Assembly (NCBI GenBank): GCA_030530215.1
Contig: JAUMVJ010000004.1
Span: 1-64,000 of the forward strand
From: Coriobacteriia bacterium
GTDB taxonomy: Bacteria > Actinomycetota > Coriobacteriia > Coriobacteriales > Eggerthellaceae
DNA length: 64,000 bases
Reading direction: 5' to 3'
The notes beneath the pieces are model-generated. The model was not told the origin of the DNA and made no database searches. It saw only the letters and a list, made by a program, of their open reading frames with translations. Of the stretch, positions 56,898-63,981 are shown piece after piece (positions within the stretch are counted from its first letter, which is position 1; each line of letters opens with the position of its first letter). Both the position numbers and the translations under genes were made by a program.

Positions 56898-57476
56898 ATG
56901 TTCCTTATCGTTGGCTTGGGCAATCCAGGCGAGGAGTACGAGCATACGCGTCATAACGCTGGCTTCGAAGTGGTCGACCGCTTGGCCGAGGAAGCTCATG
57001 TCAATTACTGGAAGAACGCTTGTGGTTCCTTGGTTGGCGAGGGAAGGCTGCCCCTTGGGGGCGGCAAATACGAAGATGTGGTGCTGGCCAAGCCTCAAAG
57101 CTTCATGAACCTATCGGGCGGACCGGTTGCCAAGCTTTTGAAGCAGTATGCCATTGCGCCTGATCAGTGGATCGTTGTCCACGATGAGCTTGATATTCCT
57201 GCTGGTAGCGTGCGCGTGAAACGCGGCGGCGGCCATGCGGGTCACAACGGGCTTCGTTCCATAATCGATAAGGCAGGAACGCGCGATTTCCTTCGCGTTC
57301 GAGTAGGCGTCGGGCGTCCTCCCGGACGCATGCCTGTTCCAGATTTCGTGTTACAGGTTCCTCGCAAGGATGCGATGGACGACTTTGTCGCTGCCTGCGA
57401 TCGTGGCGCCGAGGCTGCCAAATCGCTTATCGCCGTTGGGCTCGAGAAGTCGCAGCAGGTGTACAACCAGCGCTAG
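56898..57476 (+). CDS. pth: Peptidyl-tRNA hydrolase
   Basis: Rescues tRNA from stalled peptidyl-tRNA. The 192-residue Pth1 type has VGLGNPGEEYEHTRHNAGFE with catalytic His, MNLSGGPV, VVHDELDIPAG and GGHAGHNGLRSI. It begins three bases after the prs stop, and the pair is a common actinobacterial arrangement. It is followed by about 150 bases before the RecJ-helicase gene. Confidence 0.97.
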   Translation: MFLIVGLGNPGEEYEHTRHNAGFEVVDRLAEEAHVNYWKNACGSLVGEGRLPLGGGKYEDVVLAKPQSFMNLSGGPVAKLLKQYAIAPDQWIVVHDELDIPAGSVRVKRGGGHAGHNGLRSIIDKAGTRDFLRVRVGVGRPPGRMPVPDFVLQVPRKDAMDDFVAACDRGAEAAKSLIAVGLEKSQQVYNQR

Positions 57477-57627
57477 CTTCAATTTCATAGATGCTCTTCT
57501 GATTCTTTTGTTCGATTCTTGAGCTACGGGCTGCCGTTTCCCGATGGGACGTTTTTGGGGCACGCGTAGCTTTCCAGGTGTGCGACAATGGGGAAGAAAA
57601 AAGTCTTCAGCGAATCAGGTTTGCACT

Positions 57628-60600
57628 ATGTCAGCACGTATCAGCATTCTGCCCGCGGACAAGTCCGTGGCGGAAACCCTCAGTGAGGAACTGGGGTTTC
57701 CCACTTTCATCACCACCGTTATGGTTGCTCGGGGCATCACCGATGTTCCCAGCGCCCAAGTTTTTCTTGACCCATCGCTTGATAGGGATTGGCTCGATCC
57801 CTATTCGATTGCGAACATGTCGCAGTTGGCCGATTGCCTTTCCGAGGCGATTCTTCAGGAAAAGCGCATTCTTGTCTTTGGCGACTTCGACCTTGACGGC
57901 ATTTCCGCTACCACCATCATGACGCGCGGCCTGCGCGAGCTCGGTGCCGAGGTGGTGCCCTTCATTCCGCTGCGCTTTGAAGAGGGCTACGGCTTAACCG
58001 ATGCCTCCATCAAGCGTGCGCTAAGCTACGAGCCTGATGTTCTGATAACCGTCGACAACGGCATTGCGGCAAAAAACGAGGTCAAGCAGCTTATCGATGC
58101 TGGGGTCGAGGTTCTTATCACCGATCACCATGAGCCTGCTGATCTTGTTCCGGAGGGGGTTGCGGTAGTCGATCCCAAATGCGGCGACTGTGAAAGCTCC
58201 ATCCTTGCAGGAGCCGGGGTTGCACTTAAGGTTATCCAGGTTATGGGTGGGCGCTTCGGCAAGCCTAATCTGTGGCTCGATCTGGTAGACATGGCGGCTC
58301 TTGGCACGGTCGCCGATTTGATGCCCTTGGTGGGCGAGAACCGCGCCTTGGTTGCCGCCGGAGTGAAAAAGCTCAACACCGAGCCGCGCCCCTGCGTTGC
58401 CGCGCTCATCGGAGCATCGGGGCAGACGGGCAAGGCCCTTACGGCGTCTAACTTAAGCTTCTCTTTAATCCCGCGTCTAAATGCTGCGGGTCGTATGGGT
58501 AATGCGCAGTTGGCGCTGGATCTTTTGCTCGAAGATGATTTTCAGCGTGCTTCCGCATTAGCTCAAGAGCTTGAAGAGACAAACACTCGCCGCCGCCAGA
58601 TCGAGGCCGAACTGGCTGAGGTTGCTCTTGCCCAAGCCGAAGAAACCCATGAGGGTAAACGCGTCGTCGTTGTTGCCGGCGAGGGCTGGCACGAAGGCGT
58701 CAAAGGCATCGTCGCCTCCCGTTTAACTTCAAAGTACGGCGTGCCTTCCTTGCTTTTCACCATTGACGGGGACGAGGCGCGCGGATCGGGAAGAAGCGTT
58801 GGTAGCGTCAACTTGTTCGAGGCTGTTCGCTCATGCGAAGATCTGCTCACGCGTTTCGGTGGGCACGAGGCTGCCGTCGGCGTTACCCTTCCCACGGCGA
58901 ATCTTCCTGAGTTCACCCAGCGCCTGAACGAGCACATGATGAGCTTGCCTGCCGAGGATTTCCTTGCGCGCCTTGAGGTTGACGCTGTGGTCGATTTCTC
59001 CGAGCTTGACCTGGGCAACGTCGCCTTGCTTGACCGCTTGGCTCCCTTTGGCCAGGAAAATAGCCAACCGCGCTTCTTAGCTCATGGCGTTTCTATCGTT
59101 CAGGCCCGCGCGGTCGGTGCCGACAAGAACCACCTTTCCTGCACCTTGAGCGACGGAAGCGATTCGCTCAGCTGCATTATGTTCCACTGCCCCGATATCG
59201 ATGCTTTGCTCTCCTGCCATTCTGTGGTCAATGCGGTGTTCCAGCTTCAGATCGACGAATGGCGCGGGCGCCGATCGGTAAAGGCCGTGCTTTCCTCTCT
59301 TGAACCCGTTGAGCCTTGCTGTGCCTTGGAGGCCTGTCTTGACGATGAGAAGGTTTCCTATGTGGGCGAACTTGTCGATTGCGCCGAGCGCACGCATGCG
59401 GGCACCGGCTTTCCCTTTAGATCACAGGCTTTGGATGCAAGCTTGTCGGAGCGCCGTCGCGAATGGTCCGAGATCGCAAAAGGCGATCAAACTCTTCTTC
59501 GTCAGGCTTTGATTCAGTCTTTCTTGGGAGAGGGGAGCCTTCACGATTCTCAGCTTCGTTCTTTGGAGCTTTTGGATCAAGGGGCTTCGGTGCTTTCCGT
59601 TATGGGGACGGGTCGAGGCAAATCCCTGATATTCCAACTCCATGCTATCGAGCTTGCGTTGAAATCCGATAAAGCGAGCTTGTTCGTGTATCCTCTGCGC
59701 GCTTTGGCTTCCGACCAGGCTTTTCATCTGATGCGCACCGTTGAGCCTTTTGGCTTGTGCGTTAAAGTGCTTAACGGTGATACCTCAACGGATGAGCGCA
59801 CCGAAATCTTTGCGGGTTTAAGCGAAGGCTCGGTTGACATCGTTCTTACGACGCCGGAGTTCCTCGATGCGCATTCCTCGCATTTTGCAAAGTCTGGTCG
59901 CATCGGCTTCGTTGTGGTTGATGAGGCTCACCATGTTTCAACCTCCCGTGCGGGCTTCCGACCTAGTTATCGTCGTTTTGCGCAGATCGTGGACGAATTG
60001 GGCAAGCCTCAGGTTCTGGCAGTAACCGCAACAGCCGATGCCGGGGTGCTTGAGGCGGTTAAGGCCGATTTGGGCATCGAGGCGCTGGTAACCGACAAGC
60101 ATGAGCGCGAGAACCTTTCCATCGACGATCAGCGCAACATCCGAAAAAAGGAACGCTATTTGGCGAATCTTGTTGTGCAGGGCGAAAAGACAATCGTCTA
60201 CGTCAATTCCCGTGCCGAGAGCATCTCTTTGGTTCGCGACCTGCGCTCTCGGGTGCCGCAGATGGCGCCCTTAATTGGTTTTTATAACGCCGGCCTTACC
60301 AAAGATGAACGCATGCGTATCGAGGAATTCTTCCGCAAGGACGAGCTTCAGGTTTTGGTTGCAACTTCGGCCTTTGGTGAGGGCATCGATGTTCCTGGGG
60401 TTCGCCACGTGGTTCTCTACCATCTTCCCTTCAGCGAGATTGAATTCAACCAGATGAGCGGACGCGCTGGTCGCGATGGCAAATCGGCAACGATTCACCT
60501 TTTGTTCGGCAGGCAGGATGGCGAATTGAATGCCGGCATCCTGGCTCTTGCGGCGCCCGATCACGACGCAATGGGTCGAATCTACCGTGAGCTAAGGCGT

Positions 60601-60948
60601 CGTCAGCGCCAAGCAGGAACGGGTGTTTTCGCGCTCACCTGCGACGAGCTTGCCTATTACGCCAGCTCTCTTCTTCCTTCATCAAGGATCGATCCCGCCC
60701 AGGCTTCTTGCGCTCTGTCTGTGTTCTCTGAGCTGGGATTGGTCAAGCTGGGTTCGCTTCCCTCAAATGCCACCGAGGTTGTTACCGTTCATGTCGTAGA
60801 CTATGGGGGAAAGGTCGAGCTCACCGATAGCGTTAGGTATCGCGAGGGCTTAGACGAAATCGCTGAATTCAACGATTTCAGCGAATGGGTGCTCAAGCGT
60901 TCGGTCAAGGTTCTGCAAGAGCGCATTCGTAGGCCTCTTTTGCCTTAA
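57628..60948 (+). CDS. RecJ exonuclease fused to a RecQ-like helicase
   Basis: One 1106-residue frame. RecJ half (about 1-590): DHH motifs FGDFDLDG (Asp86, 88 and 90), TVDNG (Asp144) and TDHHEP (166-168), DHHA1 RFGGHEAAVGV, then an OB-like part. Helicase half (about 630-990): Walker A GTGRGKS (Lys665), DEAHH (765-769), and motif VI region QMSGRAGRDGKS. The tail has a winged-helix-like LTCDELAYYASSLLP. RecQ unwinds and RecJ degrades 5' ends in RecF-type repair, so the fusion links both. ATG 57628 has only a weak site; upstream in-frame residues are not conserved-looking. Confidence 0.92.
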   Translation: MSARISILPADKSVAETLSEELGFPTFITTVMVARGITDVPSAQVFLDPSLDRDWLDPYSIANMSQLADCLSEAILQEKRILVFGDFDLDGISATTIMTRGLRELGAEVVPFIPLRFEEGYGLTDASIKRALSYEPDVLITVDNGIAAKNEVKQLIDAGVEVLITDHHEPADLVPEGVAVVDPKCGDCESSILAGAGVALKVIQVMGGRFGKPNLWLDLVDMAALGTVADLMPLVGENRALVAAGVKKLNTEPRPCVAALIGASGQTGKALTASNLSFSLIPRLNAAGRMGNAQLALDLLLEDDFQRASALAQELEETNTRRRQIEAELAEVALAQAEETHEGKRVVVVAGEGWHEGVKGIVASRLTSKYGVPSLLFTIDGDEARGSGRSVGSVNLFEAVRSCEDLLTRFGGHEAAVGVTLPTANLPEFTQRLNEHMMSLPAEDFLARLEVDAVVDFSELDLGNVALLDRLAPFGQENSQPRFLAHGVSIVQARAVGADKNHLSCTLSDGSDSLSCIMFHCPDIDALLSCHSVVNAVFQLQIDEWRGRRSVKAVLSSLEPVEPCCALEACLDDEKVSYVGELVDCAERTHAGTGFPFRSQALDASLSERRREWSEIAKGDQTLLRQALIQSFLGEGSLHDSQLRSLELLDQGASVLSVMGTGRGKSLIFQLHAIELALKSDKASLFVYPLRALASDQAFHLMRTVEPFGLCVKVLNGDTSTDERTEIFAGLSEGSVDIVLTTPEFLDAHSSHFAKSGRIGFVVVDEAHHVSTSRAGFRPSYRRFAQIVDELGKPQVLAVTATADAGVLEAVKADLGIEALVTDKHERENLSIDDQRNIRKKERYLANLVVQGEKTIVYVNSRAESISLVRDLRSRVPQMAPLIGFYNAGLTKDERMRIEEFFRKDELQVLVATSAFGEGIDVPGVRHVVLYHLPFSEIEFNQMSGRAGRDGKSATIHLLFGRQDGELNAGILALAAPDHDAMGRIYRELRRRQRQAGTGVFALTCDELAYYASSLLPSSRIDPAQASCALSVFSELGLVKLGSLPSNATEVVTVHVVDYGGKVELTDSVRYREGLDEIAEFNDFSEWVLKRSVKVLQERIRRPLLP

Positions 60949-60975: not shown

Positions 60976-63294
60976 ATGGCCACTGATGTTATTCAGTTAA
61001 CGGTGGATCCAAGCATACAATCATCCACCGCCGCCCCCATGGGGTCCAACCCTGATGTGCGCTTTCAGGACTTGCTTGGCATGGTTACCTATCTTGAGCC
61101 CGAGGAGTGCGATAAGCTGGGTCGTGCTTATGCTTACGCGCGCGAGATGCATCACGACCAGCGCCGTAAGTCGGGCGAGCCCTTCGTTTTACATCCTGTT
61201 GAGGTTGCCATTATCCTCGCCGACCTTCATATGGACGTCGAGACTTTGTGCGCGGCCTTGCTGCACGACGTGGTCGAGGACACCGAGGCAACCAAAGAAG
61301 ATGTTGCCGAGATGTTCGGCGCGTCCGTTGCCGAGCTGGTTGACGGCGTTACCAAAATCACCAAACTCAAGGTCGGCGACCTAACCGACGAGCAGGCGCA
61401 AACCTATCGTAAGATGCTCGTCGCCATGAACAACGACATTCGCGTCGTCGTCATCAAGCTGGCCGACCGTCTTCATAACATGCGCACTCTTTCCGCTTTG
61501 CGTGAGGATCGCAGGATCTACAAATCGCACGAGACGCTTGAAATCTATGCCCCTATCGCGCATCGCTTGGGCATCAGCTCCATCAAATGGGAGCTTGAAG
61601 ATTTGTCTTTCTTCTATCTGGAGCCGGCAAAATTCAAACTCGTTTCGCGCATGGTGTCGGAGAGCCGCCCCCAGCGTGAGGCATATCTGGGCTCCATTCT
61701 GAAAATCCTCCACGAGGAAACCGAGAAGCTCGGTATCGACGCTCAGCTTATGGGCAGGCCCAAGCATCTTTATTCCATTTACAAGAAGATGGCCAATCAG
61801 AAGAAGGGCTTTTCTGAAATCTACGACCTTATTGCCGTTCGCGTGATCGTTCAGACCGTGAAGGATTGCTACTCGGTTCTTGGTGCTGTGCACACGCTTT
61901 GGAACCCCATGCCCGGGCGTTTCAAGGACTACATCGCAATGCCCAAGCTCAACATGTACCAAAGCTTGCATACCACGGTCATCGGCCCGGCAGGCAGGCC
62001 TCTTGAAGTGCAGATTCGCACCGAAGAGATGCATCGCAAAAGCGAATACGGCGTTGCTGCTCACTGGCGCTACAAGGAAAAGGGCAAGGCCGATGATTTT
62101 GACCGTCAAATCGCTTGGTTGCGCGAGATGGTCGACTGGCAGGACGAAACCAAGGACTCCCGTGAGTTCCTGAAGTCCTTAAAGGTCGATCTTGCTCCCA
62201 AGGAAGTGTTCGTCTTCACGCCCAAGGGCAAGGCGATGAGCTTGCGTGCGGGCTCGACTCCGGTCGACTTCGCCTATGCGATTCACACCGAGGTCGGCAA
62301 TCGCTGCGTGGGTGCCAAGGTCAACGGCGCCATCGTGCCTTTAACCTATGAGCTTCAGCAGGGCGATCGCGTCGAGATCCTGACGCAGAAATCGGCCACC
62401 CCTTCGCGCGACTGGCTCAATTTCGTCAAAACCCCCTCGGCGCGCTCCAAGATCCGCAACTTCTTCAGCAAGGCAACGCGTTCCGACGACCTTGCCGCAG
62501 GCCGCGATAAGCTTGGCCGCGAGATGCGCAAGCATGGCTTCGGCATCTCCAACGCAAACGCGACGCGCGCCCTGAAGGAAGTCTCGGAGACACTTGGGTA
62601 TCGGGCTCCCGACGACATGTTCGTATGCCTGGGCAATGGCAAAGAAAGCACGCAGCACGTTGCCAATCGTCTTCTTAAGATTCTGGTATCGGATTCCGAG
62701 GAGGAATCGAGCCTTCCTGTTTCCGACCTTGGGATGTCCACCGGCAAGATGCCCCCGATGCTCACGAGCGTCAAGCGTCCACGCCGCAAAGCTAAAAGTT
62801 CGAACGGCGTGATGGTTCAGGGTTTGGACGATGCCGCGGTTCGTCTTTCGCGCTGTTGCAACCCTGTTCCCGGCGACGAGATTATCGGCTTCATCACGCG
62901 TGGCAGGGGAGTGTCGGTTCATCGCGCCAGCTGCCCCAACGCCAAGGACCTTATGAATCATCCGGAGCGCATAATCCCCGTTTCCTGGGCTCAGGCGGGC
63001 GAGGTTCCGCAGGATTCCGCCTTCAACGTCGAGGTGATCGTCGAAGCCGTCGACCGCATGAACCTCCTGATGGACGTTGCAAAGGTCTTTTCCGAAAACG
63101 GGGCCAACGTCATTGGGGCCAATACCATTACCCACAAGGATGGCATCAACGAGATGCGCTTCCTGTTCCAAATCAGCTCGCCTGCGGCAATTGATCGGAT
63201 ATTGAAGGGCTTGCTCGAGGTTGATAGCGTCTTCGGCGCTCGCCGCGTCGTTCCCGGCGCCCCCTCGAGGAAGCAACGTGGAAGGAAGGCTTAA
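60976..63294 (+). CDS. RelA/SpoT-type (p)ppGpp synthetase/hydrolase
   Basis: A bifunctional Rel of 772 residues. The HD hydrolase domain is intact (HPVEVAIILADL and LLHDVVEDT). The synthetase domain contains RPKHLYSIYKKM and YQSLHTTVIGP. Then come TGS (VFTPKGKAMSLRAGSTPVDF) and a C-terminal ACT domain (VDRMNLLMDVAKVFSENGAN). Both activities are therefore likely. It follows the RecJ fusion by 27 bases with AGGGAG upstream and abuts the metallo-hydrolase gene. Confidence 0.96.
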   Translation: MATDVIQLTVDPSIQSSTAAPMGSNPDVRFQDLLGMVTYLEPEECDKLGRAYAYAREMHHDQRRKSGEPFVLHPVEVAIILADLHMDVETLCAALLHDVVEDTEATKEDVAEMFGASVAELVDGVTKITKLKVGDLTDEQAQTYRKMLVAMNNDIRVVVIKLADRLHNMRTLSALREDRRIYKSHETLEIYAPIAHRLGISSIKWELEDLSFFYLEPAKFKLVSRMVSESRPQREAYLGSILKILHEETEKLGIDAQLMGRPKHLYSIYKKMANQKKGFSEIYDLIAVRVIVQTVKDCYSVLGAVHTLWNPMPGRFKDYIAMPKLNMYQSLHTTVIGPAGRPLEVQIRTEEMHRKSEYGVAAHWRYKEKGKADDFDRQIAWLREMVDWQDETKDSREFLKSLKVDLAPKEVFVFTPKGKAMSLRAGSTPVDFAYAIHTEVGNRCVGAKVNGAIVPLTYELQQGDRVEILTQKSATPSRDWLNFVKTPSARSKIRNFFSKATRSDDLAAGRDKLGREMRKHGFGISNANATRALKEVSETLGYRAPDDMFVCLGNGKESTQHVANRLLKILVSDSEEESSLPVSDLGMSTGKMPPMLTSVKRPRRKAKSSNGVMVQGLDDAAVRLSRCCNPVPGDEIIGFITRGRGVSVHRASCPNAKDLMNHPERIIPVSWAQAGEVPQDSAFNVEVIVEAVDRMNLLMDVAKVFSENGANVIGANTITHKDGINEMRFLFQISSPAAIDRILKGLLEVDSVFGARRVVPGAPSRKQRGRKA

Positions 63295-63981
63295 ATGTCT
63301 CTTGAGCTTGTTCGCAGCAAGGGCGGCCTGGCCGTCAAGGGTGCTTGCGTTGATATCTCGTTTCTGGTGCTCGGCCCTATCGAAAACAACACCTATTTTA
63401 TTTCCGGGAAGGATTCCCTGATCGTGGTTGATCCCTCGTGTCAGGCCAAGAAGATCCTGGATTTTCTTGGTGGCAAAAAGCCCGATGCTATTTTTGCTAC
63501 TCATCATCATCACGACCATGTAGGAGCCTTAGCTGAGCTTCGCGAGAAAACCGGCGCTCCCGTTTATGCGTCGGCCATCGATGCGAAGATCATCGAGAAT
63601 CCCGATTTGTATCCTTCTTACGGCGGCAAGGCTAAAGCCTGCAAGGTTGACAAAAGGCTGCGCGACAAGGACAAGGTGAAAATCGGGGGCATGACCTGGC
63701 AGGCCATTCTTACGCCAGGGCACACGCAAGGCGGCATGTGTTTCTACCTTCCAGGCGAAGAGGGCAGCGATCCTTCCGGCTGGAATGTTTTGGTTTCGGG
63801 GGATACTTTGTTCTGCGGCTCCATTGGACGCACCGATTTCAAGGGTGGAAGCATGCCCGACATGCAGCGATCGCTGCGTCGTTTGGCCCAGCTGCCCGAC
63901 CGTACCCTTGTTTTGCCGGGGCACAATGCTCTTACCACCATTGCCGACGAGCAAAAGCGCGTATTCCGCTACTACTGCTAA
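63295..63981 (+). CDS. Metallo-beta-lactamase-fold hydrolase, glyoxalase II-like
   Basis: A 228-residue MBL-fold hydrolase with THHHHDHVGA (first metal site), LTPGHTQGGMCFY, SGDTLF with the bridging Asp, and LVLPGHNALTT. This is the glyoxalase II/persulfide dioxygenase-like subgroup; the substrate could be a thioester or polysulfide and is not fixed by the motifs. It starts at the base after the relA stop with GGAAGG upstream. Its end lies 19 bases before the window edge. Confidence 0.88.
   Translation: MSLELVRSKGGLAVKGACVDISFLVLGPIENNTYFISGKDSLIVVDPSCQAKKILDFLGGKKPDAIFATHHHHDHVGALAELREKTGAPVYASAIDAKIIENPDLYPSYGGKAKACKVDKRLRDKDKVKIGGMTWQAILTPGHTQGGMCFYLPGEEGSDPSGWNVLVSGDTLFCGSIGRTDFKGGSMPDMQRSLRRLAQLPDRTLVLPGHNALTTIADEQKRVFRYYC

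Follow-up and report, generated by a model that had tools for sequence, protein, structure and literature searches.

The recJ gene of the window, the 64,000-nucleotide stretch of a Coriobacteriia contig (JAUMVJ010000004.1) that was analysed, encodes a RecJ nuclease and a RecQ-like SF2 helicase in a single protein, and the fusion was confirmed to be genuine. It is conserved across the class Coriobacteriia and is also found in other Actinomycetota and in scattered Bacillota. A preliminary description had read one frame of 1106 residues as RecJ joined to a RecQ-like helicase, an assignment borne out by Pfam, by TIGR00644 and by best matches in the RecQ family. The class-wide occurrence of the fusion, the HIRAN domain of its relatives and the dead helicase remnants in Bacillota RecJs lay beyond its view. 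The new elements are the series of decaying helicases in the Bacillota and the origin of the domain PF10141 that the series suggests.

Domains and motifs of the fusion protein

The frame from 57544 to 60948 on the forward strand was open from end to end with no interruption, and the start codon at 57628 fits the homologs, whose alignment begins at approximately residue 27 of the longer frame. Five Pfam domains, DHH, DHHA1, RecJ_OB, DEAD and Helicase_C, were matched, each above its cut-off (Table 1). The protein passed the curated RecJ test, TIGR00644 (recJ, NCBIfam), with 480 bits against a cut-off of 396.9 over residues 54-584. The domain search of the helicase half against RecQ and other SF2 groups, suggested at the outset, gave RecQ as the best curated family (NCBIfam, 190 bits, residues 656-1010), although the scores were below the curated cut-offs, 190 versus 640 bits for TIGR01389 and 181 versus 220 bits for TIGR00614. 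The nearest solved sequence relatives of this half were RecQ, WRN, RECQL4 and RECQL5 (E 2e-35 and weaker).

Table 1. Coordinates of the fusion gene, its domains and motifs, and its neighbours in the window
Feature	Position	Strand	Remarks
pth, peptidyl-tRNA hydrolase	56898..57476	+	Pfam PF01195
RecJ-helicase fusion gene	57628..60948	+	1106 aa; ATG 57628; longer open frame from 57544
DHH phosphoesterase domain of RecJ	57865..58308	+	Pfam PF01368, 83.6 bits
DHHA1 domain	58657..58935	+	Pfam PF02272, 52 bits; motifs GSGRS, FGGH
RecJ OB domain	58978..59292	+	Pfam PF17768, 89.4 bits
Disordered linker	59317..59445	+	pLDDT <50 over most; HIRAN site in most relatives
Helicase RecA-like lobe 1	59506..60048	+	Pfam PF00270, 85 bits; high pLDDT in model
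Walker A, GTGRGKSL	59605..59628	+	
Walker B / motif II, DEAHH	59920..59934	+	
Helicase RecA-like lobe 2	60049..60513	+	Pfam PF00271, 86 bits
Motif VI, QMSGRAGRDG (arginine finger)	60451..60480	+	
C-terminal winged-helix-like tail	60514..60945	+	homologous to Bacillota RecJ end (PF10141)
relA/spoT-type (p)ppGpp synthetase	60976..63294	+	conserved neighbour; Pfam, synteny
gloB-like MBL-fold hydrolase	63295..63981	+	conserved neighbour; synteny

The DHH domain contained the motifs DFDLDG, VDNG, TDHH and GTVAD, which were kept in 65 homologs, and the catalytic aspartates and histidines of these motifs were invariant across the alignments. All of the SF2 core motifs I-VI of the RecQ type were present in the helicase half; Walker A, Ia, II (DEAHH), III, IV, V and VI, together with the RecJ motifs, were retained nearly without exception in the same 65 homologs. 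The helicase catalytic residues noted in the preliminary description are thus in place, and the loss of key residues on alignment that it had envisaged as a counter-case was not seen. A decaying pseudogene was ruled out by the intact, conserved motifs. Between relatives, the helicase half was conserved almost to the degree of the nuclease half. The aromatic-rich loop of RecQ was altered, and Pfam gave no match to RecQ-Zn, RQC or HRDC in the fusion protein, in agreement with the earlier remark that the zinc cluster and HRDC were missing. Neither HIRAN nor PF10141 was matched by Pfam in the window protein; one relative gave a weak PF10141 match.

In an AlphaFold2 model of the fusion (pLDDT 88.7), RecJ was followed by a disordered linker, both RecA lobes and a terminal segment resembling a winged helix. 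The folds of the model matched RecJ structures (Z 53) and RecQ-family helicases (Z up to 27.6) in Foldseek and VIA-align comparisons.

Distribution, gene neighbourhood and host genome

A phylogenetic survey, also suggested in the preliminary description, found the fusion throughout the class as well as in other Actinomycetota and scattered Bacillota. In the family of the window, all 60 genomes searched had a match, nearly always full length and in a single frame, and the shorter matches were mostly contig ends. In the class as a whole, 146 of 149 genomes had a match, including 123 of the 123 good ones; the three without were incomplete genomes. The frames in the class were mostly 1100-1300 aa among the matches listed. 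Complete genomes from across the family and the class carry the fusion, so it is neither a chance event nor an assembly artefact. Another Actinomycetota family carried the fusion in four genomes, with one additional contig-end case. A scan of named genomes located it in Candidatus Oleimmundimicrobium, Orenia metallireducens, MAGs labelled Thermincola and other Bacillota MAGs, and long fused frames were present in about 20 of the 199 genomes around a Thermincola MAG, which were taken as Bacillota.

Most copies of the fusion outside the window's family had a HIRAN domain between the OB domain and the helicase, detected by Pfam (E 8e-16 to 2e-8) and by a local HMM. It was present in the sister lineages, in the Bacillota copies and, within the class, in many members outside the window's family, but absent in the window's family itself and in a Collinsella-like family (f3). 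The window's family has lost the domain. The HIRAN of HLTF is a reported binder of 3' ends and of DNA resembling a fork (PMC4666394), and by analogy the HIRAN of the relatives probably docks the fusion on a 3' end or a fork. A stand-alone ORF of 657 aa with the arrangement HIRAN-helicase-tail and no RecJ was also encountered (L199:1471-3441, forward strand, genome G582). It adjoins an ORF resembling a phage recombination or replication gene and could be a mobile form of the module.

The gene order around the fusion is prs-pth-recJ-relA-gloB. The recJ-(apt)-relA-gloB neighbourhood, whole or partial, was found in Actinomycetota and Bacillota with the fusion and likewise in Listeria, Vescimonas and Monoglobus, in which recJ is unfused, indicating that the recJ locus is orthologous. 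The fusion is the ordinary, vertically inherited recJ gene of the lineage. In one fused Bacillota genome, the relA gene 3' of recJ was split over two overlapping frames, possibly by a frameshift (L194:6869-9282).

No second RecJ was found in the window's genome, a 64%-complete assembly, which had one separate canonical RecQ with HRDC, RQC and Zn domains. The preliminary description had allowed that separate RecQ and RecJ proteins might accompany a decaying fused copy; the separate RecQ is there, but the fusion is the only RecJ and is intact. A search for AddA in this assembly gave UvrD/PcrA-like matches only. A congeneric genome that is 99% complete (G046) had an AddA-like gene (UvrD and PDDEXK, 1274 aa) side by side with an AddB-like gene (PDDEXK, 910 aa; L093:2064-8575, reverse strand). 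The AddB-like protein has a possible cysteine cluster, and the pair, which scored below the AddA_Gpos cut-off, appears to be a divergent AddAB.

The C-terminal tails of Bacillota RecJs

A search for recJ in 119 genomes gave frames of approximately 580 to more than 1200 aa, of which 30, along with five records from a plasmid collection, were scanned with separate HMMs. At the intact end of the resulting series, the arrangement was RecJ-HIRAN-RecA1-RecA2-tail. In one protein (L226) the helicase was dead and HIRAN was retained. In seven others (L239, L235, L232, L237, L219, L220 and L234), one or both lobes could still be detected or aligned, and Walker A, DEAH, V and VI had been lost. Only lobe 2 and the tail remained in L218, and further states were the Listeria and Paenibacillus types, a tail alone (Vescimonas) and no tail. 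The dead forms had lost all of the catalytic motifs, although the flanking strands were recognisable in most. The Bacillota RecJs form a decay series that runs from an intact helicase, through a dead helicase with its fold kept, to a dead lobe 2 and tail.

Several comparisons connect these tails to the fused helicase. In bridging sequences, Helicase_C or DEAD was matched together with PF10141. An alignment of 17 Bacillota RecJ tails, which includes Listeria PF10141, matched the alignment of fused helicases in hhalign profile-profile comparison over 250 columns spanning lobe 2 and the tail, with a probability of 99.8% and an E-value of 4.3e-29, the E-values of these tail comparisons being those of single comparisons. 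Compared with the fused helicase, one Paenibacillus tail by itself reached a score of 60.7 (maximum 23.9 in 100 shuffles). The score of the Listeria tail alone was not significant, and its connection to the fused helicase runs through the alignment and PF10141. In a PDB search, the 17-tail profile recovered residues 563-754 of S. aureus RecJ (8y30; E 1.2e-11) and, more weakly, reached lobe 2 of the DEAD-box proteins Vasa and DDX3X; the short tail alone matched the lobe-2 ends of RecQ-family proteins and not 8y30. VIA aligned 623 residues of 8y30 to the model, up to residue 1067, compared with about 520 for most other RecJs. These profile comparisons argue that PF10141 of Listeria and S. aureus RecJ is the remnant of a dead second RecA lobe and its tail. 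Literature searches found no explanation for this C-terminal domain of Firmicutes and S. aureus RecJ, and those on RecJ-RecQ fusions and on HIRAN with RecJ returned nothing relevant.

The VIA-align match of Deinococcus RecJ (5f56) also ran into the helicase region, to residue 959 of the model. Its domain IV might be a relic too; the 17-tail sequence profile gave no match to it.

Among the fused proteins, nuclease and helicase distances were correlated (r 0.88; permutation maximum 0.35), and this co-variation indicates that the two halves were inherited together. The Coriobacteriia were a single clade in a tree of the RecJ core (100/100), and the fused, dead and tail-only forms of the Bacillota were interleaved on a weak backbone. 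Given the weak backbone, one ancient fusion followed by many losses is the favoured history without being proven; the simplest reading is an old fusion and repeated loss in the Actinomycetota and Bacillota. The interleaving on a weak backbone and the stand-alone HIRAN-helicase-tail gene would also accord with the opposite course, in which the PF10141 tail is not a relic, RecA-like and winged-helix segments came first and the helicase was assembled on them, or fused separately, in some lineages. That course is quite improbable, because the intermediates still show the strands of the two lobes, and one of them HIRAN, but none of the catalytic motifs, and because the tails begin at the DxR...K segment that precedes motif IV, the place predicted if lobe 1 was lost. 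Loss from an old fusion is the preferred account: it is likely that the RecJ at the stem of the Actinomycetota and Bacillota was a RecJ-HIRAN-RecQ-like protein that stayed functional in the Coriobacteriia and a few Bacillota and became, as PF10141, a pseudo-helicase in Staphylococcus, Listeria and probably Bacillus, where it may bind DNA or partners. Most Bacillota would have lost the helicase, leaving the dead RecA lobe 2 and winged-helix tail, and would use RecQ in trans. For the C-terminal domain of Firmicutes RecJ, that of S. aureus included, the decay series supplies both an origin and a role open to testing.

Proposed function and relation to known systems

The textbook pair of RecJ and RecQ works as separate proteins; motors of the RecQ type move 3'-5', and DNA degradation by RecJ proceeds 5'-3'. 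It is quite likely that the fusion is a resection enzyme, a RecJ 5'-3' exonuclease tethered to a RecQ-like helicase, that works beside RecQ and AddAB and whose relic in the Bacillota is PF10141. With the polarity expected from RecQ homology, the helicase would move 3'-5' on the 3'-ended strand and displace the 5'-ended one for degradation by the RecJ tethered to it. At an end with a 3' tail, a gap or a fork, motor and nuclease would travel the same way, inward. At gaps, stalled forks or broken ends, this would yield a 3' overhang for RecA. The fusion should make unwinding and 5' degradation coupled in cis.

The altered aromatic-rich loop and the missing RecQ-Zn, RQC and HRDC elements leave room for a helicase that unwinds weakly or chiefly translocates. 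The same features, the separate RecQ in the genome and the HIRAN of the relatives, which points to forks, would suit an active ATPase that is not a resection helicase but strips SSB or RecA or places RecJ at forks, RecJ then cutting solely pre-existing single strands. We regard this as unlikely, given that all of the SF2 motifs and the RecQ-type core are conserved across two phyla and that the closest solved folds are RecQ-family helicases. The preliminary description had gone further and proposed a self-contained resection machine that may replace RecBCD/AddAB-type processing. Of that proposal, coupled 5' resection is kept here as the most sensible reading. The replacement is left without support by the separate RecQ in the genome and the AddAB-like pair in the same genus. 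It is very improbable that the fusion is the sole resection machine in place of RecBCD/AddAB and RecQ: the UvrD/PcrA-like matches obtained for AddA in the window's own incomplete assembly would agree with it, but that assembly has a canonical RecQ and the nearly complete congeneric genome carries the adjacent AddA- and AddB-like genes. The resection enzyme would act alongside RecQ and AddAB, not instead of them.

Other roles were considered and rejected. A role in defence was set aside, as PADLOC matched mainly RecQ-like helicases (PsyrT, DpdF) along with cores of other helicases and the locus is a housekeeping one. The listed phage matches were cores of RecQ-like helicases and spanned no more than 62% of the query, and a phage origin was dismissed.

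The Coriobacteriia comprise gut and environmental bacteria; with RecJ and a RecQ-like motor in one chain throughout the class, they provide a simple system for testing whether unwinding is coupled to 5' degradation. The fusion shares the DHH-DHHA1-OB core and its catalytic residues with bacterial RecJ (TIGR00644; E. coli, Thermus, Deinococcus and S. aureus 8y30) and adjoins relA as in the Bacillota, but adds a complete helicase and tail, of which S. aureus RecJ retains just a dead remnant. With the RecQ family (E. coli RecQ, WRN, RECQL5) it has in common the RecA1-RecA2 core, the motif set and the closest folds, and it differs in lacking the Zn-binding, RQC and HRDC domains, in its aromatic-rich loop, in having a tail of its own and in its position behind RecJ. 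B. subtilis has the same pair of activities in two separate proteins, RecJ acting with RecQ or RecS in trans for resection, beside AddAB (PMC10804225). In Bacteroidota, recJ and recQ are adjacent yet separate genes (L115:1447-5097, Parabacteroides; also L113 and L114), an arrangement that links both activities independently.

S. aureus DinG, with its N-terminal exonuclease (PMC12345164), also combines a nuclease and an SF2 helicase in one chain. Its polarities, however, 3'-5' for the exonuclease and 5'-3' for the helicase, are opposite to those predicted for the fusion, its nuclease is unrelated to RecJ and its helicase is of the XPD type. HLTF/Rad5 likewise links HIRAN to an SF2 motor, an arrangement shared by most relatives of the fusion, but is a eukaryotic SNF2 dsDNA translocase without RecJ, and the window protein is without HIRAN. 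AddAB and RecBCD pair an SF1 UvrD-type helicase with a PDDEXK nuclease, whereas the fusion pairs an SF2 helicase with a DHH nuclease.
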